Of a stretch of 64,000 bases of DNA, positions 5,429-51,934 are shown in pieces; within the stretch, counting starts at the first letter, position 1, and each line of letters opens with the position of its first letter. The notes below the pieces were generated by a model. That model did no database searches, was not told the DNA's origin, and worked only from the letters and a program-made list of their open reading frames with translations. The stretch comes from Hyphomicrobiales bacterium. GTDB taxonomy: Bacteria > Pseudomonadota > Alphaproteobacteria > Rhizobiales > Rhizobiaceae. The position numbers were made by a program, and so were the translations under genes. Where the stretch lies: assembly GCA_900469625.1 (NCBI GenBank), contig UBXV01000030.1:1-64000 (forward strand), in the 5' to 3' direction.

Positions 5429-6904
5429 TCAGTTTTCCCAATAGGTCTGGGTCTGGTCGTCAGCCGGTACCGGCATGTTCTTCCACAGACCCTTCACCTT
5501 CTTGTTCCAGACGCCGATCTTCGGGAGCGCGTAGAGGAAGACGTTCGGCTCATCGGCTGCCAGCTTGCGCTGGAGCTTTCCGACGAGGCCGAGCTGCTCG
5601 GCCTCGGTCGCGGCAAGCGTGAACGACTTGTAGAGCGCCTTGTATTCGGGGTTCTGGTAGTTGAAGTAGTATTTGTCGCGGGCATAGATATCGAGGTCAC
5701 GGGCCTCGGCATGCGCGATGATCGTCGCGTCGAAATCCGAGTTCTTGAACACCTGGTCGAGCCATTGCGCAAACTCGATCGGAACGAGGTTCACCTTGAT
5801 ACCGGCTTCGCCGAGCATGGCCGCGATGATCTCGCCGCCGCGACGGGCATAGGCCGGCGGCGGCAGCATGATGGTCATTTCCAGGCCTTCGACGCCTGCC
5901 TCCTGCAGCAATTGCTGCGCCTTGGCCGGGTCGTAAGGATAGGTATCGTTGAGATCGACATAGCCGGGCTCGACCGGCGAATAGTGCGAACCGATGGTGC
6001 TGCCCAAGCCCGAATAGGTCCCCTCGACGAGTGTCTTGCGGTCGATCGCATGAGCAAGCGCCTGGCGCACCCTGACATCGTCGAAGGGTTTGCGGGCATT
6101 GTTGAGCGCGAGAACCACCTTGCCCGAGGTGCTGCCGACCTCGACCTTAAGGTTGGGATCGCTCTCGAACTGGCTGACGAGTTCGGCAGCCTGGAACATC
6201 GGGAACGCATCGACATTGCCAGCGAGAACGGCAGCCGCCGCTGCCGAGGGATCGCTGATGAACTTGAAGGTGACTTCGCTGAGCTTGGCCGGCTCGCCCC
6301 AATAGTCGGCGTTCTTCTCGAGCACGACCTTGTCGCCCTTTGCCCATTCCTTGAACTTGAACGGACCGGTGCCGACCGGTTTGGTCTTGTTGTCGGCGGC
6401 CGATGTCGGCGCGATCATCACCGCATCGCCCCAGGCCATGTTGAACAGGAAGTTGGAGGCCGGACGCTTGAGCGTCACGACCGCCGTCGCCGGATCCGGG
6501 CACTCGGTCTTTTCGATCGGCTCGAACAGGCCCTTCTGCGCATTGGTGGAATCGGCCGAGACCGCGCGCTCATAGGAAAACTTCACGACTGAGCAATCGA
6601 ACGGCGTGCCGTCGTGGAACTTGACGCCCTGGCGTAGCTTGAACGTGTAGCTCTTCTGGTCGTCAGATACCGTCCAGCTTTCAGCCAGGAGCGGCTTGAC
6701 CGTGCCATCCTCGACCACCCGCACCAGCCCCTCGAAAAGGTTGGTGTAGGTGATGTAGCGGATCGGCGCTGCGGCACCCGCTGTCGGATCGAGGCCTGGC
6801 GGCTCCAGCACCTGGCCGACCGTAATCGTATCCTTGGCCGTCGCCGGTGTCAGCGATACGGCAATCATGCACGAGGCGAGCGCCCATTTCGTCAAGTTCA
6901 TCAT
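5429..6904 (-). CDS. Periplasmic binding protein of a peptide/opine ABC importer (SBP_bac_5)
   Basis: I place the start at 6904 (MMNLTKWALASC..., 491 residues) because GGGGGAACG lies directly before it. Residues 1-23 form a signal peptide ending TPATA. The mature part shows family-5 solute-binding features: LEPPGLDPTAG near the start, LFEGLVRV, LAESWTVSDD and YTFKLRQGVKFHDG. It captures the ligand in the periplasm and delivers it to the DppBC-type permeases. Ligands in this family include di/oligopeptides, opines, nickel complexes and glutathione. The amidase downstream argues for an amide-containing compound. Confidence 0.92.
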   Translation of the reverse strand: MMNLTKWALASCMIAVSLTPATAKDTITVGQVLEPPGLDPTAGAAAPIRYITYTNLFEGLVRVVEDGTVKPLLAESWTVSDDQKSYTFKLRQGVKFHDGTPFDCSVVKFSYERAVSADSTNAQKGLFEPIEKTECPDPATAVVTLKRPASNFLFNMAWGDAVMIAPTSAADNKTKPVGTGPFKFKEWAKGDKVVLEKNADYWGEPAKLSEVTFKFISDPSAAAAAVLAGNVDAFPMFQAAELVSQFESDPNLKVEVGSTSGKVVLALNNARKPFDDVRVRQALAHAIDRKTLVEGTYSGLGSTIGSHYSPVEPGYVDLNDTYPYDPAKAQQLLQEAGVEGLEMTIMLPPPAYARRGGEIIAAMLGEAGIKVNLVPIEFAQWLDQVFKNSDFDATIIAHAEARDLDIYARDKYYFNYQNPEYKALYKSFTLAATEAEQLGLVGKLQRKLAADEPNVFLYALPKIGVWNKKVKGLWKNMPVPADDQTQTYWEN

Positions 6905-6941
6905 CGTTCCCCCGCTTTGCGGTTGGTTGTTTATGGTTCCC

Positions 6942-6987
6942 ACTGCATCTTTCCATTAATCGTATCCGATTGAAGGAAAGATGCAGT
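6942..6987. promoter_or_regulatory. Nested inverted repeat upstream of the importer operon
   Basis: A perfect 13-bp inverted repeat (6942-6954 and 6975-6987) encloses a 20-base spacer. The spacer itself holds a second dyad, AATCG-TATC-CGATT (6959-6972). It sits 38-83 bp upstream of the binding-protein start, between it and the SDR stop at 7035. It could be a composite operator, a terminator of the upstream SDR unit, or both. No T-run follows on the minus strand. Confidence 0.55.
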
Positions 6988-7034
6988 CAATCAAAGGCAT
7001 ACAGCGTCGCGCGTCTCGCAGGGCGCTGTAGGTG

Positions 7035-7781
7035 TCAGATCGAGCGGCCTCCGTCGACATCGAGCGCGACGCCGGTGATCATCGATGCCTGTGGCGAGGC
7101 GACGAAGGCGGCGGCTTCGGCCAGATCCTCGGGCTTCAGCAGGCGCCCCAGCGGAATGGAGTCGCGGAACTTCTGGCGGATTTGCTCGCTGTCTTCACCC
7201 ATGAAGGTCGCCAGCAGCGGTGTTTCGCCGGCGACCGGATTGAGCGCCACGACGCGAATGTTGAAGGGCGCAAGTTCGATCGCCAGTGCCTTGGTGGCCG
7301 AGACCACCCAGCCCTTGGTCGCGTTGTACCAGGCAAGGTTCGGGCGCGGCCTGTTGGCGCCGGTGGACGCGATGTTGACGATCACGCCCGACCTGTTCTC
7401 CTTCATGTGCGGCAGCAGCGTGCGCGTCATCAGGTAGATGCCACGGACGTTGACGCCGAGGATCCGGTCGAACTCGTCCGGCTCGACCAGTTCGGCGTTC
7501 TGCGGCTTGTGACCGATGCCGGCATTGTTGACGAGAACATCGATGCGCCCGAATTTCTCGAGCCCGGCCGCAACAGCCGCCTCCACGTCCGCCTGAATGG
7601 CGATATCGGCGACCACGGCAAACGCATTGCTGCCGAGGTCCTTGGCGACACGCGCAGCACCATCGGCATCTCGGTCGACAACGACCACCTTTGCCCCGCC
7701 ATCGACGAAGCGCTTCGCAATACCCTCACCGAAGCCGGAGCCTGCGCCGGTGATGAGAGCGACTTTACCTTCTAGTGACAC
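7035..7781 (-). CDS. Short-chain dehydrogenase/reductase (SDR)
   Basis: The GTG at 7781 is preferred because AGGAGG lies seven bases upstream; this gives 248 residues, the classical SDR length. It has the nucleotide-binding TGAGSGFG motif near 11-18, NNAG (about 85-88), and the catalytic Ser139, Tyr152 and Lys156 (YNATK). Asp36 after the second strand (VVVVDRD) points to NAD preference. It follows the aldehyde dehydrogenase by 82 bp on the same strand. An alcohol-to-carbonyl oxidation feeding the aldehyde dehydrogenase is plausible but not shown. Confidence 0.88.
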   Translation of the reverse strand: MSLEGKVALITGAGSGFGEGIAKRFVDGGAKVVVVDRDADGAARVAKDLGSNAFAVVADIAIQADVEAAVAAGLEKFGRIDVLVNNAGIGHKPQNAELVEPDEFDRILGVNVRGIYLMTRTLLPHMKENRSGVIVNIASTGANRPRPNLAWYNATKGWVVSATKALAIELAPFNIRVVALNPVAGETPLLATFMGEDSEQIRQKFRDSIPLGRLLKPEDLAEAAAFVASPQASMITGVALDVDGGRSI

Positions 7782-12543: not shown

Positions 12544-14028
12544 CTATCGCGCCTGCCCGATCGATGGATGGGCTGCCAGTTCGGCGACGCGGGCAAGATC
12601 CTGCGCAAACCGGGCAGTCTCCTCCTCCCGCCGCCCCGCATCGGGGATGCGCAGCAGGAAGGACGGATGCACGGTGACGAACACGCCAGGGCCACTTTCC
12701 GGGTAAAGGATCTGCCCGCGCACGTCGGCGATCTTCGGACGCGCGCCGGTCAGCGCGAACAGGGCCGTCGCCCCCATCGCCACCACCAGCCGCGGCTTGA
12801 CCAGCGCAAGCTCAAGGTCGAGCCACCATCGGCAATGTTCCACCTCGCCGGCATCAGGCCTTTGATGCAGGCGCCGCTTGCCGCGCATCTCGTACTTGAA
12901 ATGCTTGACGGCGTTGGTGACGTAGAGCGATTTCCGGTCGAGCCCGACTTGCTGCGCCACCGTATCGAACAGCTTGCCCGCCGGTCCGACGAAGGGTCTG
13001 CCGGCAAGATCCTCCTGATCTCCCGGCTGTTCGCCGACGATCATCACCGGAGCGTCGGGCGGCCCTTCACCGAACACCGTGCGCGTGGCGTTGCAGTGAA
13101 GCGGGCAGCGCGTGCAGCCGGCGGCTTCCGCCCGGACGTCCTCCAGGGTCATTCGCGAGGACGGTACCACGCTGCCCTGCCCGTCCGGGGCAGGTCGAAC
13201 ACGCGCATGAAAGGCAGGTGGATCGGTTGCCGCCCGCTCGGCCATCGCCGCGACGCTCGCCTCAGCGCCGGCGATCATCGCGGGAATGAGCGAGGCCTCC
13301 GGCAGGTTCTTCCAGTACTTCTTCGGCATTTCCGACTGCATCGCCCTCACCTTCAGTCGCGCCGGATTGAAGATGCTGGAAAAATAGGTGCGCCAGAGGT
13401 CTTCGGTATCGTCCGACATCGGCGATTTTTGCCCTGGTGCCGACGACACCTCCATAACCGCGCCATCCCAGGCGGCGACGCCGCGCGGTGTCGCGATCAT
13501 CCAGTCCATGTCGAAGAAGCGACGCTGGAAGAACGGCGCGACCCGGGCAACGACGTAATGATCCGGCTCGAACCAGGCGACGAAGCGTCGGCGCTCGCTT
13601 CCTGCGCGATGTCCGACCTCCTTGAACCGGACGAAGGCCGTCATCTTGTGGCTGTCGCGCCGCACCGACTTCACCAGGCCATTGAGCATGGCGACGTCTT
13701 CATCGGTTGTGAGCGAAAGCAGATTTCTATCCCGCTGCAATCGATTAAGGACGCGGTAGAGAATGGCGAAGCGAGCCGGATCGGCGTGACAGATGGCGGC
13801 AGCCGCGGTGTCGAGGAACGACTTCGGCACCGTCAATGTCGATGTCGCGCTCACGGTCGGCGCGGGCACTTGCCGCCCGTCCGCACCCCGATCGAACAGG
13901 TCGCTACCCGCATCGGCATTCTCCCGCCAATCGACAGCCTCGGGCGGCACGCCCGAGATCAGCAGCCTGCGCGCCGCCTCGCGCCATTCAGTGAAATCTC
14001 CCCGCCCTTCAAGGGTCACGACCGGCAT
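12544..14028 (-). CDS. DUF4130 - UdgX-type uracil-DNA glycosylase fusion
   Basis: This 494-residue protein has two parts. Residues about 1-260 match the DUF4130 'DNA metabolism' domain. Residues about 290-485 are a UDG fold with motif A GEQPGDQED (332-340), GRPFVGPAG, the loop KRRLHQ with His388, and motif B TVHPSFLLR. The KRR-I/L-H loop is the hallmark of UdgX, whose His forms a covalent bond with the abasic sugar after uracil excision in the mycobacterial enzyme. Cys305 and Cys308 (CTRC) fit Fe-S ligands. The ATG shares one base with the stop of the radical-SAM gene (TGATG), so the two are coupled. Confidence 0.88.
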   Translation of the reverse strand: MPVVTLEGRGDFTEWREAARRLLISGVPPEAVDWRENADAGSDLFDRGADGRQVPAPTVSATSTLTVPKSFLDTAAAAICHADPARFAILYRVLNRLQRDRNLLSLTTDEDVAMLNGLVKSVRRDSHKMTAFVRFKEVGHRAGSERRRFVAWFEPDHYVVARVAPFFQRRFFDMDWMIATPRGVAAWDGAVMEVSSAPGQKSPMSDDTEDLWRTYFSSIFNPARLKVRAMQSEMPKKYWKNLPEASLIPAMIAGAEASVAAMAERAATDPPAFHARVRPAPDGQGSVVPSSRMTLEDVRAEAAGCTRCPLHCNATRTVFGEGPPDAPVMIVGEQPGDQEDLAGRPFVGPAGKLFDTVAQQVGLDRKSLYVTNAVKHFKYEMRGKRRLHQRPDAGEVEHCRWWLDLELALVKPRLVVAMGATALFALTGARPKIADVRGQILYPESGPGVFVTVHPSFLLRIPDAGRREEETARFAQDLARVAELAAHPSIGQAR

Positions 14029-15260
14029 CAGAACAGATCCAGCTGTTCCGGCTTGGGATCGAACATCGTGCGCAGGTCGGATCGGTCGATCAGCCTGTGT
14101 GGCGTCCACCCTTCGGCCACGAGAAACGAACGCACTTTTTTGACGGAGATGTGCAGGCGCGCGAGATCCTCCAATCTCAGGCGACGCAGACGACGCGCCG
14201 ACAGGATCGCCTTGACGCTCTTGGTGCCGAGGCCGGGCACACGCCAGAGCGCCTCACGCGTCGCGGAATTGACATCAAGTGGAAAGAACTGCCGGTTGGC
14301 CAGAGCCCAGGCGAGTTTCGGGTCGAGTTTGAGATCCAGCATGCCGTCCGGCTGGTCGGCTGTGATCTCGTCGATCTCGAAACCGTAGAAGCGGTAGAGC
14401 CAGTCGGCCTGATAGAGCCTGTGTTCGCGCATCATCGGCGGCTTGATCAGCGGCAGCTTGCGCGACGCATCGGGAATGGGACTGAAGGCGGAGTAATAGA
14501 CCCGGCGCAAACCATAGCTGCCGTAGAGCCTGGCGCTGGTGGCAAGAACGACGCGATCGTTAGCCTGGTCGGCGCCGACGATCATCTGGGTGCTTTGCCC
14601 GGCCGGCACGAAGCGTTGCCTTCTCTTGGTCTGCAGCGTCGGATCATTGGCCGCGTCGATCTTCAGCCTCAGCTCCCCCATCGAGCGGCGGATGTTGCCC
14701 GGCCGCTTTTCCGGCGCGTAGCGGGCAAGGCCGGCATCGGTCGGCAGTTCGATGTTGATGGACAAGCGATCGGCATAAAGACCGGCCTGCTCCACCAGCA
14801 GCGGCGATGCCTCGGGAATGGATTTCAGATGGATATAGCCCGAGAAATTGTGGTCGACGCGCAAGGCGCGGGCAATGCGAACCATTTCCTCCATCGTGTA
14901 GTCGGACGAACGGATAATCCCCGACGACAGAAACAGTCCTTCGATATAGTTGCGCCGATAGAACTCCATCGTCAGCCAGACGACCTCTTCCACCGTAAAC
15001 CTGGCCCGCTCGACATTGCTCGAGGAGCGATTGATGCAATAGGCGCAATCGTAGATGCAGAAATTCGTCATCAGGATCTTGAGGAGCGAAATGCACCGGC
15101 CGTCCGGGGCATAGGCGTGGCAGATGCCGGATCCTTCAGTCGAGCCAAGCCCGCCGGTATCCGCAGAGCTTCGCTTCACGGTTCCACTCGAAGCGCACGA
15201 GGCGTCGTACTTTGCCGCATCCGAAAGGATGGCGAGCCGTTCTTTGAGGGACTTTTTCAT
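14028..15260 (-). CDS. DNA modification/repair-associated radical SAM protein
   Basis: This 410-residue protein belongs to the radical-SAM family that travels with UDG/DUF4130 proteins. The Fe-S cysteines are Cys68, Cys72 and Cys75 (CIYDCAYC). A C-terminal helix-hairpin-helix (VNSATREALWRVPGLG, about 335-360) suggests DNA binding. The family's chemistry is not established. It is the first gene of a two-gene operon with the UdgX fusion. A LexA-type box begins five bases upstream of its ATG, so expression on DNA damage is expected. Confidence 0.9.
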   Translation of the reverse strand: MKKSLKERLAILSDAAKYDASCASSGTVKRSSADTGGLGSTEGSGICHAYAPDGRCISLLKILMTNFCIYDCAYCINRSSSNVERARFTVEEVVWLTMEFYRRNYIEGLFLSSGIIRSSDYTMEEMVRIARALRVDHNFSGYIHLKSIPEASPLLVEQAGLYADRLSINIELPTDAGLARYAPEKRPGNIRRSMGELRLKIDAANDPTLQTKRRQRFVPAGQSTQMIVGADQANDRVVLATSARLYGSYGLRRVYYSAFSPIPDASRKLPLIKPPMMREHRLYQADWLYRFYGFEIDEITADQPDGMLDLKLDPKLAWALANRQFFPLDVNSATREALWRVPGLGTKSVKAILSARRLRRLRLEDLARLHISVKKVRSFLVAEGWTPHRLIDRSDLRTMFDPKPEQLDLF

Positions 15261-15264
15261 TTAT

Positions 15265-15279
15265 GTTCACTATATGTTC
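15265..15279. promoter_or_regulatory. Candidate LexA (SOS) box, GTTC-N7-GTTC
   Basis: GTTC-ACTATAT-GTTC is an exact match to the alphaproteobacterial LexA site GTTC-N7-GTTC. It is read on the plus strand and lies 5-19 bp upstream of the radical-SAM ATG at 15260. A repressor here would block transcription or clearance of the repair operon. The exact spacing and the DNA-repair product make a chance match unlikely. Confidence 0.72.
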
Positions 15280-15438
15280 CGAAGCACTCCAAGTCAATGT
15301 CGATCGCGCGATCGCATGCCGAAGAAAGGCAAAGCCGACGAAGGGTCAGACACACCCGAACGCGCGCCGCTGCCCGCCTCCCTGTTGCGCAACGTCGCCC
15401 CGCGCTATTGTGAGGACCGCGCGGTGGAGGTTTTCGGC

Positions 15439-41459: not shown

Positions 41460-44090
41460 TCAGAACCGATTGGTAAGGCTGATCCGGAATGTCCGGCCGG
41501 GCGCCGGTACTGCGTTGGCGACACCGGTCGCTGCGTCCAGATAGAAGCGGTCGGTCAGGTTCTCGACGCTCACGGCCAGTTGTACCCAGTCGTTGATCTT
41601 GTGCTTGGCATAGAGGTCCACCGTGGTGAAGGGCGGCGCGAAGTTCTCGACGCTGGTGCTGCCCAGGACCTTGAGATTGAAGGCCGTGTCGGTCGCATGG
41701 GTCACGCGCATGCCGACATCCAGCGCCTCATCGAAGAAGCGGCCGCCCACGGTCAGGTTGTGCAGGTTCTTCGGCACCGCATGAATGCCGATGATATCGC
41801 CGAGCGCGCCATAGCCTCCGTCGCAGCCGACCATATCGTTGAGTTCCGGCGCGTGCGGCGAGCCGCAGATCTCGGCCTTGAGATAATGGGTCAGCCCGTA
41901 TTCGGCATAAAACTGGTTCGCGTCATAGCGCAGCGATAGCTCAAGCCCGCGATGCGTCAGGCTCGGCATGTTGGCATAGCCGGGGATGAAGCCGTTGCCG
42001 GTGATATAGTCGGTATAGCGGTTGTCGAAGTAGCCGAGCTTGCCGCCCAGGAAATCGCCGTCGCGAAAGACGTCGTTGCCGGAATAGCTCGCTCCGAATT
42101 CGATGCCGCGCTTGCGTTCCGGGCGGATGGCGGAACCGTCGGGGTTGGCGCCGAACAACCCGATCTCGCGCATCGACGGCGCACGCCAGCCTTCGCTGTA
42201 ACCCACGTAGCCGGCGGCGCCCTCAAAGGGCAGATCGAACGCGGCGCGCAGATGTCCGGTGGTGGCCGAGTAGCGGGCATCATCGACACCGCTGTCGTTG
42301 GAAGGCAGCGGATCCGGCAGGTTGCGGCTGAAATACGCGCGATCGTTGCGCACGCCACCCTCGAGCCGCAGCCAGGACGTCACGTCCACAGCAAGGGTCG
42401 AGAACGTGGAAAGTCTGTCCATCCGCCCCTCGGCGAATTGCCAGTCGCCGCCGAAGGCGCTGTCAGGCAGGCCGCGCTCTCCCTTCAGATCCTCTCTTGC
42501 GCCGTATATGCCGATATCGAGCTGGGCCTCGTGGTCCGCGATGCTGAACAGGCTGGTGTTTGCAACCGAAATGCCGGTGTTTGACGTTTCGCGTGACAGG
42601 CCGGTCAAGAACCTGTGCTCTTCGAGCTTGCCGCGCCAGAGCTTGGTGCGCAGGTCGATCAGGCCGCCCTCCTGCGGGTTCCAGCGATGCTCCAGGCCGA
42701 CATTGTTCTGCTCCGTCGTTGCCGGGTGGTAATAGGGATCGAATCCGCCGGCCATGTTGCCGGCGCTGCGGATATTGCCGTTCCAGATGTCCATCCGGCT
42801 GAACACCAGTGACAATTCATGACCGTCCTCCAGTTCAGCCCTGGTCTTGAAGAGGGTGTTGTCGCTTTTGTTGTAGGTGCCAAAAATCTCCGCGCCGGGC
42901 TCGTAGGCGGTGATCGGCACCGCCGGCATCTCGGGGAAACCTGGCGGCATCAGGTACTTGCGCATCAGGGTGCCATTGCTGCCGGCACTATAATTTCCGG
43001 ATTCGCGGTGCGAATAGCCGAAGACAAAGGACAAGATGTCGTTTGCGCGCCAACCGGCGGCAACGCTGGCGGAATAGTCATGATCCGGGATGCCCTTGCG
43101 CACAGCCGGATCGAAGGGAAACAACGCGGGCCTGGGGCAATGCGCCGGCTGCAGCGATGGCGCCTGCGTGCAACTGTCGTAGCGGCTTCCGTCGTCGGCG
43201 TTGCTGCCGACGCCGACCTGCGTGCGCACACCCCAGTTCTTGTCGCCGAAGATCAGTTCGTCGGCCTCGACCGTGCGCATCTCGATGGTGCCGCTGATGG
43301 CATCGCCGCCCTTGCGCGAGGTGGCCTTGTCCACCGTGTAGCCGCTGATGAAGTCGGGATCGATGTAGAAGTTCTGCGCGTTGCCCGAGTAGCCCTTGTA
43401 GGTATGCGAGGAATTCTCGACGCCATCGACGATCAGGGCGATGCGGCCTGATCCCTGCGTGCCGCGGATCATCGGCTCGATGGCCGGGGATGACCGGTTG
43501 TTGCTGGCGAGAACCCCCGGCACGCCTTTCAGGATGTCTCCGGGGCTGGTGACCGGCACGCGCTCGAGCATCTCGGCGTCGACGACATAGTACTCGGCAG
43601 GCGTCGTGTAGGTCTGTTCGCCGGAGATGCCCCTGCCCGTGACGACAATGGGATCGAGGACCGTCGAGCCATCGTCTATGCCTGAGCTGGTGTGCCCCGG
43701 CAGCGTTGCATCGATTACCGCGACGTCGGCGCTGACGAACCGAAAGCTGATGCCGGTGCCGCTCAGGAGACGCCCGAGCGCTTCGGCAGCCGTCATGCGG
43801 CCGGCAACGGCACGCGCCGTGACATCGCCCGCAACCGCACCGGAGACCTGCGAGACCTGGACGCCCGATTGGCGGTTGAAGGCGAGAAGCGCGCGGTTCA
43901 ACGGTTGTTCGGGAATGTCGAAGGTCTTGATCTGGCCCTGCTGTGCGGCCGCCGATGGCGCCGGCTCAGCTTGCGCTGCGGCGCGCGGGATGGCCAACGC
44001 CAGGACCATGGCGGTCGAGGCCAGGAAGAGCGCAACGCGCGCTCCTTCGTGCCTGGTTGCGATCTTGCGATGAACTGTCTTGAACGCCAT
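41460..44090 (-). CDS. TonB-dependent receptor with STN signalling domain
   Basis: This 876-residue outer-membrane receptor has a signal peptide (about 1-40, ending AAAQA), an STN/secretin-like signalling domain (about 55-125), the TonB-box-like LDPIVVTG, a plug domain (about 155-280) and a 22-strand barrel ending in Phe (ISLTNRF). The STN domain passes ligand status to FecR. Genes for FecI and FecR lie just upstream on the same strand. A RirA-type box precedes fecI, so the ligand is likely an iron complex such as haem or a siderophore. The barrel has no distinctive ligand motif. Confidence 0.92.
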   Translation of the reverse strand: MAFKTVHRKIATRHEGARVALFLASTAMVLALAIPRAAAQAEPAPSAAAQQGQIKTFDIPEQPLNRALLAFNRQSGVQVSQVSGAVAGDVTARAVAGRMTAAEALGRLLSGTGISFRFVSADVAVIDATLPGHTSSGIDDGSTVLDPIVVTGRGISGEQTYTTPAEYYVVDAEMLERVPVTSPGDILKGVPGVLASNNRSSPAIEPMIRGTQGSGRIALIVDGVENSSHTYKGYSGNAQNFYIDPDFISGYTVDKATSRKGGDAISGTIEMRTVEADELIFGDKNWGVRTQVGVGSNADDGSRYDSCTQAPSLQPAHCPRPALFPFDPAVRKGIPDHDYSASVAAGWRANDILSFVFGYSHRESGNYSAGSNGTLMRKYLMPPGFPEMPAVPITAYEPGAEIFGTYNKSDNTLFKTRAELEDGHELSLVFSRMDIWNGNIRSAGNMAGGFDPYYHPATTEQNNVGLEHRWNPQEGGLIDLRTKLWRGKLEEHRFLTGLSRETSNTGISVANTSLFSIADHEAQLDIGIYGAREDLKGERGLPDSAFGGDWQFAEGRMDRLSTFSTLAVDVTSWLRLEGGVRNDRAYFSRNLPDPLPSNDSGVDDARYSATTGHLRAAFDLPFEGAAGYVGYSEGWRAPSMREIGLFGANPDGSAIRPERKRGIEFGASYSGNDVFRDGDFLGGKLGYFDNRYTDYITGNGFIPGYANMPSLTHRGLELSLRYDANQFYAEYGLTHYLKAEICGSPHAPELNDMVGCDGGYGALGDIIGIHAVPKNLHNLTVGGRFFDEALDVGMRVTHATDTAFNLKVLGSTSVENFAPPFTTVDLYAKHKINDWVQLAVSVENLTDRFYLDAATGVANAVPAPGRTFRISLTNRF

Positions 44091-49615: not shown

Positions 49616-51934
49616 ATGTCGAGGGGTAAGTTCAACTTCGTTTCGCGCGGACGGCGCAATGCCGCTCTTGCCGGTGTTTCGCTGCTGGCAATATCTGCGG
49701 TGCCGGCGCTTGCTCAGGAAGCACGCCGGACGGATCGGGTAAAGGCCGGGGTCCAGAGCGAGACTGCGTCCAGTGCGAACGGGACGACGAAGCTGGACGC
49801 CATCGTGGTCGTCGGCAAGACTGGCGGCCAGCCGCCCGAAACCGGCACGATCGGTCAGCCTTCGGCTCCCTATGCCGGTGGCCAAATGGCAACCGGCGCG
49901 CAGCTCGGAGCGCTCGGCAACCGCCCGGTCAAGGAAACGCCATTCAGCATCACGGGCTACACCGAGAAGCTGATCCGCGATCAGCAGGCCCGGTCCATTG
50001 CCGATATCACCATCAACGACCCCTCCGTGCGCCAGGACGCGCCGACCTTCAGCGAACGCGATTCCTTCTTCATCCGCGGCTTCTCGGTGACCAATCTGGA
50101 CACCGCCTATGACGGGCTTTTCTACATCGTCAATCCGCGACGCAGCCCGCTTGAAGGCATCGAGCGGGTGGAAATCCTCAAAGGGCCGACCGCCCTGGTG
50201 AATGGTGGCCTCGGCCGTGTCGGCGGCACCATCAATCTTGTGCCCAAGCGCGCGACCGACGAGCCGCTGACGCGGCTCACGACCACGTATCTCTCGGATT
50301 CACAGCTGTGGTCCCATCTCGATGTCGGCCGCCGCTTCGGGCCGGAAGGCGAATGGGGCGTGCGTTTTAACGGCTCCTATCGCGGCGGCGACACGGCGCT
50401 TGATCACAACGAGAACGAGATTGGTGTGCTTTCGCTCGGCCTCGACTATCGTGGCGACCGGGTTCGCGCATCGCTCGACCTCAACCATTCCAAGCAGAAC
50501 CTCAACGCGCCAACCTCGTTGTTCAATGCGGCGGCAACGGGGATCGAGATTCCGAAGGCACCTGACGGCCGGATCAACACCTCCAATCCGTTCGAATACC
50601 ACGACAGCGAGCACAATATGGTCGCCGGCCGTATCGAGTTCGACGTACTTGACAACACCACGATCTACGCTGCCGGCGGCGTCAGCCAGTACCGCGAAGA
50701 CTTCCTGAGCTCGTCCTATACGTTTGGCGATATAAGGCTTGTGAGCCCGAAGCCCGGTGATGCGCAGGTAGATTTCGGCTACAACCCGCAGGAAATCCAG
50801 GGTTTTTCGGGTGAGGTCGGCATCCGTTCGGCCTTCGAAACGGGGGCAATCGGTCACCAGCTCAACGTGTCCGTGAGCAGGACGCACAACGCGAACAACC
50901 GCGGTCGCTTCAATCCACGGGCCTTGAGTTTCCCGAGCTACCCGACCAACATCTACAACCCGACCTACCTGCCTGATGGTTCCGTGAGCACGGCCGGACT
51001 CCCGCGCTCGAACGACCTGCACCCATTTGCAGATCTGCTGACCACCAGCCTTGCGATCTCCGACACGCTTTCGTTCGCCGAAGACCGCTTCCAGCTGACG
51101 GTTGGCGGGCGCTACCAGCATATACGCTCGCAAGCCTTCAACACGCGCCCGGGATTTCCATTGGCGCCGGTTGGCGAACGGAACTATTTCTTTAAGGATT
51201 CCCGGTTCAGCCCTGCCGTTGCAGCCGTCGTAAACGTGACCGACAGTCTGTCGGTCTATGCCAACTACGTGGAGGCCCTGACCGAGGGCCCGACAGCCCC
51301 GTCTGTCGCTGAAAACAGCGGCCAGATCTTCCCCGCCGTCGTCAACAAGCAGAAGGAAATCGGCGTCAAGTACGATCTTGGAGACGTGATGCTGAGCGCA
51401 GCGCTGTTCGAGATCCGGCAGCCAAGCGGTTTTACGAGTGTTGTACCGGGCGTTGCGAAACCCGTCTTCGCGGTGGACGGCCTCCAGGTGAACCGTGGTC
51501 TCGAGCTGTCTGCCTACGGTGAACCGGTCGACGGCGTTCGGCTGCTCGGCGGCATTACCTTCATGGACGCGGAACTGGCGAAGACGCAAGGCGGCTTGCT
51601 CGACGGCAATAGCGTCCCCGGCGTTCCGAAGACGGCGATCAGCCTTTACGGCGAATACGATACGCCCTGGGTCGAGGACCTCACCCTCACGGGTCGCATC
51701 GTCTACACCGGCAGCACCTACTACGACCAGAAGAACACGCAGAAGGTGCCGGACTGGACGCGGGTCGATCTCGGCGCGCGCTATTCCTTCGCGCGCGAAA
51801 ACGGCAAGCCAGTGGAAATCCGGGCGACCGTTCAGAACGTGTTCAACGAGAACTACTGGGCCTCGTCTGCCCGCGGCTTCCTCGCCGCCGGTGCACCACG
51901 CACCTTCATGATCTCCAGCTCGTTCGATTTCTGA
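49616..51934 (+). CDS. TonB-dependent siderophore receptor (FhuA/FoxA-like)
   Basis: This 772-residue receptor has a signal peptide (about 1-33, ending ALAQE), a TonB-box-like LDAIVVVG, a plug domain (about 85-240, with VKETPFSITGYTEKLI, FIRGFSV and VEILKGPTALVNG) and a beta barrel ending in Phe (SSFDF). It has no STN domain, so it is not of the signalling type. The layout matches hydroxamate or ferrichrome-type siderophore receptors. It stands alone; no siderophore genes lie next to it. Two hairpins follow its stop. Confidence 0.9.
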   Translation: MSRGKFNFVSRGRRNAALAGVSLLAISAVPALAQEARRTDRVKAGVQSETASSANGTTKLDAIVVVGKTGGQPPETGTIGQPSAPYAGGQMATGAQLGALGNRPVKETPFSITGYTEKLIRDQQARSIADITINDPSVRQDAPTFSERDSFFIRGFSVTNLDTAYDGLFYIVNPRRSPLEGIERVEILKGPTALVNGGLGRVGGTINLVPKRATDEPLTRLTTTYLSDSQLWSHLDVGRRFGPEGEWGVRFNGSYRGGDTALDHNENEIGVLSLGLDYRGDRVRASLDLNHSKQNLNAPTSLFNAAATGIEIPKAPDGRINTSNPFEYHDSEHNMVAGRIEFDVLDNTTIYAAGGVSQYREDFLSSSYTFGDIRLVSPKPGDAQVDFGYNPQEIQGFSGEVGIRSAFETGAIGHQLNVSVSRTHNANNRGRFNPRALSFPSYPTNIYNPTYLPDGSVSTAGLPRSNDLHPFADLLTTSLAISDTLSFAEDRFQLTVGGRYQHIRSQAFNTRPGFPLAPVGERNYFFKDSRFSPAVAAVVNVTDSLSVYANYVEALTEGPTAPSVAENSGQIFPAVVNKQKEIGVKYDLGDVMLSAALFEIRQPSGFTSVVPGVAKPVFAVDGLQVNRGLELSAYGEPVDGVRLLGGITFMDAELAKTQGGLLDGNSVPGVPKTAISLYGEYDTPWVEDLTLTGRIVYTGSTYYDQKNTQKVPDWTRVDLGARYSFARENGKPVEIRATVQNVFNENYWASSARGFLAAGAPRTFMISSSFDF

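Follow-up and report, generated by a model that had tools for sequence, protein, structure and literature searches.

A predicted LexA-controlled operon of a radical-SAM protein with a putative sliding-clamp motif and a DUF4130-UdgX fusion in a Hyphomicrobiales bacterium

A stretch of 64,000 nucleotides from a Hyphomicrobiales bacterium (contig UBXV01000030.1, assembly GCA_900469625.1), hereafter the window, carries on its minus strand a two-gene operon encoding a radical S-adenosylmethionine (radical-SAM) protein and a fusion of a DUF4130 domain with a UdgX-type uracil-DNA glycosylase (UDG). Our preferred reading, for which we judge the chances to be evenly balanced, is that this is an SOS-induced operon for the processing of DNA lesions, in which a radical-SAM/DUF4130 pair would be recruited to the sliding clamp and UdgX would be an add-on.

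The radical-SAM gene (14028-15260, minus strand; 410 amino acids) was defined from the open reading frame (ORF) call, a match to the NCBIfam family TIGR03916 (559.5 bits; cut-off 343.5) and an AlphaFold2 model. Its stop codon shares a TGATG overlap (position 14028) with the start of the fusion gene (12544-14028, minus strand; 494 amino acids from the ATG at 14028), whose product scored 216.4 bits against TIGR03915 (cut-off 112.25) and 327.8 bits against TIGR03914 (cut-off 189.95), and matched DUF4130 and UDG in Pfam. The Pfam Radical_SAM model gave 26.4 with the radical-SAM protein, below its cut-off of 29.5. The ORFs and the NCBIfam matches agree with the gene pair and the coupling described in an earlier sequence-only reading of this DNA, which also placed C68, C72 and C75 of the first protein and H388 of the second correctly. 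Among the matches listed, the nearest named locus is that of Ensifer adhaerens strain Lc04, with a radical-SAM protein 94% identical. The order of the TIGR03916/TIGR03915/TIGR03914 set is the same as in Rhizobium leguminosarum pSK03, and the window operon differs from the set in nothing of kind; the clamp motif and the second cysteine group described below are features of the family. Some loci have a longer gap between the two genes, and a third conserved gene was sought there, but the inserts differ (deaminase-like, hemerythrin-like and others, as judged by eye) and none was found. This is a real, conserved two-gene operon of a known family.

A predicted LexA operator, GAACATATAGTGAAC (15265-15279, minus strand), precedes the radical-SAM gene. 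It has the form GAAC-N7-GAAC, which reads GTTC-N7-GTTC on the plus strand, and 4 bases separate it from the radical-SAM ATG; the sequence-only reading had recognised the exact match and had miscounted the distance as five bases. GTTC-N7-GTTC is described as the alphaproteobacterial LexA motif in an excerpt of PMC8565304. A pattern scan returned one predicted sigma-70 promoter, TTGACT-17-TATAGT (15269-15297, minus strand; 1 found, 0.4 expected). Its predicted -10 hexamer falls within the box, so that LexA would block the promoter, and transcription would start at or near the ATG with a very short leader or none. The boxes of the same genome's lexA (63 bp upstream of its ATG) and recA (GAACATGAATCGAAC, about 180 bp upstream of the matched part of the gene) read as the alphaproteobacterial type, like that of the operon. 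A lone box was rejected as evidence of SOS control because the pattern is too frequent, with 213 exact boxes genome-wide against 124 for the reversed-pattern control, and positional conservation was used instead. The window holds 3 exact boxes where 1.8 were expected; the other two, at 43896-43910 and 51830-51844, lie within TonB-receptor-like ORFs and are probably there by chance.

Positional conservation was assessed in two sets that overlap in genomes, with gene starts placed by alignment. The same-order set comprises 39 loci, namely the window locus and 38 relatives (one of them, L078, cut by a contig end), from 41 matching genomes, after a fragment (G010) and a weak match (G102) were dropped. 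In 38 of the 39 loci an exact box of the same orientation lies a short distance before the radical-SAM start, which gives a positive answer to the check proposed in the sequence-only reading, that is, a search for boxes before this pair in other rhizobia. In the exception, L056, the box lies at -91 and faces the other way. Over the remainder of these loci, 8 of 3521 windows held the box, and a backward-pattern control occurred near the radical-SAM start in 1 of 39. Among 80 named alphaproteobacterial loci, 72 had the exact box (background, 18 of 6999 windows), five had it in the other orientation, two had it with one mismatch and one had none. Since its position is conserved, the box goes beyond chance despite the frequency of the pattern. 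Of 109 distinct upstream stretches from alphaproteobacteria that have a box, 89 carry a -10-like hexamer within it. The E. coli-type SOS box is CTGT-N8-ACAG. The loci outside the class number 11 and represent every genome of the same phylum beyond it with a score over the cut-off. Eight of them have CTGT-N8-ACAG in the roughly 50 bp upstream, as against 0 of 328 control windows; another of the 11 (L240) has the weak form CTG-N10-CAG only, with a background of 21 of 328. A LexA-type operator that is kept while the operator type switches is stronger evidence than any one site. As the operator is conserved upstream and fits the LexA motif of the clade, the predicted SOS control of the operon is strongly supported, and the repair setting that the sequence-only reading had assigned to it is likewise backed by comparison.

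The SOS link has apparently been published before. COG4277 is presumably the radical-SAM family TIGR03916. The part of PMC8565304 seen presents a UDG repair system of two genes, COG1573-COG4277, as being under SOS regulation in Bacteroidetes and refers to earlier reports of it in Verrucomicrobia and Alphaproteobacteria; this is apparently the same gene pair under the same control. Unlike that Bacteroidetes system, the window operon has the alphaproteobacterial direct repeat as its operator, and the system described in that part includes a UDG, whereas one Parabacteroides locus and a Bacteroides control show none. The operator swap outside the class is new, as far as our searches of the open-access literature reach.

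The pairing of the families was investigated in 249 genomes across the phylum, using profile hits over the curated cut-offs. TIGR03916 was found in 39 genomes, TIGR03915 in 41 and TIGR03914 in 38. DUF4130 was present in all 39 radical-SAM genomes, and two genomes (G314 and G331) had DUF4130 without the radical-SAM protein. The radical-SAM protein and UdgX occurred together in 29 genomes, where about 6 would be expected from 39 and 38 of 249, and, of the 79 DUF4130 genes that the named alphaproteobacterial loci hold, 72 were long enough for UdgX. These two counts speak for the idea, put forward in the sequence-only reading, that the radical-SAM enzyme processes or reverses a covalent DNA-UdgX crosslink. 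However, 10 of the 39 radical-SAM genomes lacked UdgX over the cut-off (G142, G163, G190, G198, G214, G297, G304, G310, G339 and G351), and 9 of the 38 UdgX genomes lacked the radical-SAM protein (G167, G171, G187, G253, G268, G285, G314, G327 and G331). Moreover, no UdgX was found in the roughly 13 kb fetched around the radical-SAM/DUF4130 pairs of Acinetobacter, or around that of Parabacteroides; in both, a stand-alone DUF4130 gene follows the radical-SAM gene. An enzyme that undoes the crosslink should not so often live without UdgX, which argues against crosslink resolution, although it may still operate where UdgX is fused; with DUF4130 in every radical-SAM genome of the sample, this idea is not favoured and we regard it as highly improbable.

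Six of the 10 genomes without UdgX over the cut-off show lower-scoring UDG-like matches. The seven short DUF4130 genes of the named loci have no neighbouring UdgX, two of them showing a match of only 32 residues, at the beginning of the linker, and the 80th locus stops just after the radical-SAM gene. The control Bacteroides ihuae matched TIGR03916 and TIGR03915, not TIGR03914, and Caulobacter vibrioides, also among the controls, matched all three models. The core of the system is the radical-SAM protein with DUF4130, and UdgX is optional. Within the reach of our literature searches, the contrast between an optional UdgX and a nearly constant DUF4130 is new. The pair could also act in sequence with a glycosylase, by converting a damaged base whose product UdgX or an ordinary glycosylase would then remove. 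This fits the fusion of DUF4130 with UdgX in most named loci, and a replacement glycosylase would often be present, since the UdgX model at E<=0.001 gave UDG-like matches in 192 of the 249 genomes. On the other hand, UdgX bonds to its own product and so is not a turnover enzyme, according to the accessible part of PMC10359453, and G190 and G142 have the pair with no match to the UdgX model. We consider this sequential scheme unlikely.

The clamp-recruited pair that we prefer takes its recruitment from the C-terminus of the radical-SAM protein. The protein ends in EQLDLF, in which QLDLF (residues 406-410; 14031-14045, minus strand) is a predicted beta-sliding-clamp-binding motif, as judged from the tail pattern and the consensus. 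Excerpts of two papers give QL[S/D]LF or QxxLF as the clamp-binding consensus (PMC12309361) and describe such motifs as frequently C-terminal (PMC4549789), and the QLDLF of the window protein has this form at an exposed end. The tails of 145 distinct complete radical-SAM proteins were compared with 927 other ORFs from the loci of these proteins, including some antisense ORFs. The pattern Q[LM]xL[FLIW] occurred in the last 12 residues of 133 of the 145 proteins, as compared with 0 of the 927 control ORFs, and elsewhere in the protein in just 3 of the 145. The form QxxLF was found in 93 tails, QL[SD]LF in 47 and the loose form Qxx[LMF][FLIWGM] in 141; several of the exceptions run to six residues, as in QLSLAL and QLSLGF. 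Q406 is invariant in 57 aligned sequences, the tail of the Fusobacterium protein is QLKLF, and residues 406-410 are disordered in the AlphaFold2 model. From the C-terminal motif, we infer that the radical-SAM enzyme is probably recruited to the sliding clamp. The clamp protein DnaN is encoded in the same genome as the operon, at G000:C43:16698-17810. No paper on a clamp motif in the TIGR03916 family was found in the open-access literature searched, and to that extent the motif is new. A distant radical-SAM relative from Gemmatirosa (L227, about 5990-7260) holds an internal QLSLW.

The predicted 4Fe-4S cluster that binds S-adenosylmethionine (AdoMet) is assigned to a CX3CX2C motif (C68, C72 and C75; 15036-15059, minus strand), which is invariant in the 57 aligned sequences and is found in all 13 members of a more divergent set that takes in Parabacteroides and Fusobacterium. 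Alignment revealed a candidate second metal site, formed by C22, C47, H48 and C56 (15093-15197, minus strand), which brings the conserved cysteines of the family to six in total. These four residues are invariant in the 57 proteins and retained in 12 of the 13 divergent ones. In the remaining protein, the Gemmatirosa relative (35% identical), all four are gone together while the core cysteines are kept, and no DUF4130 was found in the 13 kb fetched. Their joint loss in one protein suggests that they form one functional unit, perhaps a second metal site holding an auxiliary Fe-S cluster or zinc. Lipoyl synthase and MiaB, which have an auxiliary Fe-S cluster, serve as a comparison for C22, C47 and C56. 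In the AlphaFold2 model, which has a predicted local distance difference test (pLDDT) score of 84, most of the region of these three cysteines is disordered or modelled with low confidence. A C-terminal helix-hairpin-helix region, PGLGTKSVKAIL (14133-14258, minus strand), was proposed from the sequence, from weak hits to the ComEA and RuvA profiles (best E 0.013) and from helices in the model.

In a fold search with the radical-SAM model, the 50 best rows were other radical-SAM enzymes and none was a close relative; by sequence, no solved relative was found beyond weak matches to the helix-hairpin-helix or the cluster motif. Spore photoproduct lyase (SplB) is a radical-SAM enzyme of DNA repair with the CX3CX2C motif; the window protein shares this motif and has a predicted role in repair. 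It differs from SplB in adding the helix-hairpin-helix region, the clamp motif and the second cysteine group, and membership of SplB was rejected, as NCBIfam at E<=0.001 gave TIGR03916 only. Neither a paper establishing the chemistry of the TIGR03916 family nor one on the second cysteine group was found in the open-access literature searched, and the latter is, to that extent, new. Cleavage of AdoMet on a DNA substrate is predicted.

In the fusion, the TIGR03915/DUF4130 domain (13294-14004, minus strand; confidently modelled, pLDDT 87) scores over its cut-off beside the radical-SAM gene, and its model had no match to a PDB structure at E<=0.001. The accessible part of PMC3765255 presents DUF4130 as an enzyme with a predicted link to mutagenesis, found in association with uracil-DNA glycosylases and 'SplB-like' radical-SAM enzymes. 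The TIGR03914 domain (12586-13290, minus strand), assigned by NCBIfam and alignment, matched M. smegmatis UdgX (6iod) at E 3.5e-47 and other uracil-DNA glycosylases at 3.9e-33 at best. It contains GEQPGD (332-337), the R-loop KRRLH (384-388; 12865-12879, minus strand) and HPSFLLR (454-460), and E333, Q334, H388, H454 and R460 align with E52, Q53, H109, H178 and R184 of M. smegmatis UdgX, residues discussed in the part of PMC10359453 seen; H109 is the covalent nucleophile of that enzyme. The motifs and the 6iod alignment back the UdgX type named in the sequence-only reading. Motif A is kept in 71 of 72 full-length fusions (GEQPGD in 69, GEAPGD in 2), as is the R-loop histidine, both being absent from L151; 8 of the 72 did not match a simple pattern for motif B. 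Since the UdgX residues are conserved, covalent capture of an abasic site by this part is likely. The domain shares GEQPG, KRR[I/L]H and HPS..LR with M. smegmatis UdgX and, unlike it, is fused to DUF4130 and stands in an operon with a radical-SAM gene. SRAP/HMCES (YedK) proteins also capture abasic sites in single-stranded DNA covalently, like the predicted role of UdgX, with an unrelated fold and bond. UdgX differs from them in acting on uracil first. SRAP is linked to SOS in the excerpted text of PMC3765255.

The family is widespread, with at least 586 confirmed stretches in one scan in addition to the 39 of 249 sampled genomes. Within the genus its presence is patchy (6 of 16 genomes, including that of the window, match over the cut-off), and it is also plasmid-borne (158 records). 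Such a distribution would suit a pair that writes a DNA modification, perhaps against phages, which the NCBI name 'DNA modification/repair' allows. The occurrence of two kinds of LexA-type operators in different classes speaks against it, as does the lack of a PADLOC match, on which anti-phage defence was rejected; we consider this proposal very unlikely.

Two versions of the operon exist in the same genus, with radical-SAM proteins about 94% identical to that of the window in one (L062, L068 and L071) and about 65% in the other (L047 and L061). Together with the patchy presence in the genus, this looks like gain, loss or transfer. Identity to L062, L068, L071 and L081 is about 94% in the radical-SAM protein and only 76-78% in the fusion. 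It is lowest in the N-terminal 60 residues (55-58%) and in the linker (62-67%). The contigs of L081 and L071 seem to be one and the same. A record filed as Acinetobacter phage (L228; CAKLQH020000003.1, 85526-97942) has glyS, glyQ and aidB beside a radical-SAM/DUF4130 pair and looks like a piece of bacterial chromosome. A Bacteroides phage (L229; PQ571268.1, 45-563) encodes a DUF4130 protein near an annotated thymidylate synthase and DNA methyltransferase, and no radical-SAM gene is annotated in the stretch shown.

Several observations weigh against an SOS-induced, clamp-recruited radical pair. No operator was found in 1 of the 80 named alphaproteobacterial loci, neither box in 2 of the 11 loci outside the class (L161 and L175), and no match to any operator motif tried in the Parabacteroides, Fusobacterium and Acinetobacter loci; Bacteroidetes LexA motifs were sought upstream of the Parabacteroides gene and none was found. 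A good -35 element was present in just 16 of the 109 upstream stretches (3 in the shifted control), a conservation too weak for the element to be retained; because it is poorly conserved elsewhere, the promoter reading is firmer for the window locus than in general. The loci are related, so that the locus counts are not independent. The same holds for the 145 tails. The clamp motif is short, and even a canonical one can bind at mere micromolar affinity, as stated in the part of PMC12309361 seen. As for the pair, the control Thermotoga maritima matched TIGR03916 and not TIGR03915, and the 13 kb of L053 contain no DUF4130. C22 cannot be placed by the model because residues 22-44 are disordered, and DNA as the substrate rests on the context and the helix-hairpin-helix region.

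In the mechanism that we propose, LexA would cover the -10 element and keep the operon off until DNA is damaged, a step that is strongly supported. The radical-SAM enzyme, with its helix-hairpin-helix region and clamp motif, would then probably be brought to the sliding clamp, at stalled forks or behind them. It would work as a pair with DUF4130, as their co-occurrence in the sampled phylum suggests, and the pair would probably repair or convert a damaged DNA base by radical chemistry. UdgX, fused to DUF4130 in most alphaproteobacterial loci seen, would excise uracil that single-stranded gaps expose and, as predicted from the conserved residues, bond through H388 to the abasic site and shield it; this step would be accessory, and not the substrate of the radical enzyme. 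A more specific form of the proposal, which we offer tentatively and as somewhat less probable than not, is that a replication-blocking lesion is repaired directly by the SOS-induced, clamp-recruited radical-SAM enzyme with its second metal site and its DUF4130 partner, while a fused UdgX shields abasic sites in the same gaps.

If this is true, the operon would represent a repair pathway that E. coli lacks and that occurs in groups as far apart as alphaproteobacteria, Bacteroidota and Fusobacteria. The chemistry of the family becomes testable through the clamp motif, the second cysteines and the separation of the core from UdgX, which point to post-replicative gaps. The separation also shows which proteins to purify together, UdgX probably not being a required substrate.

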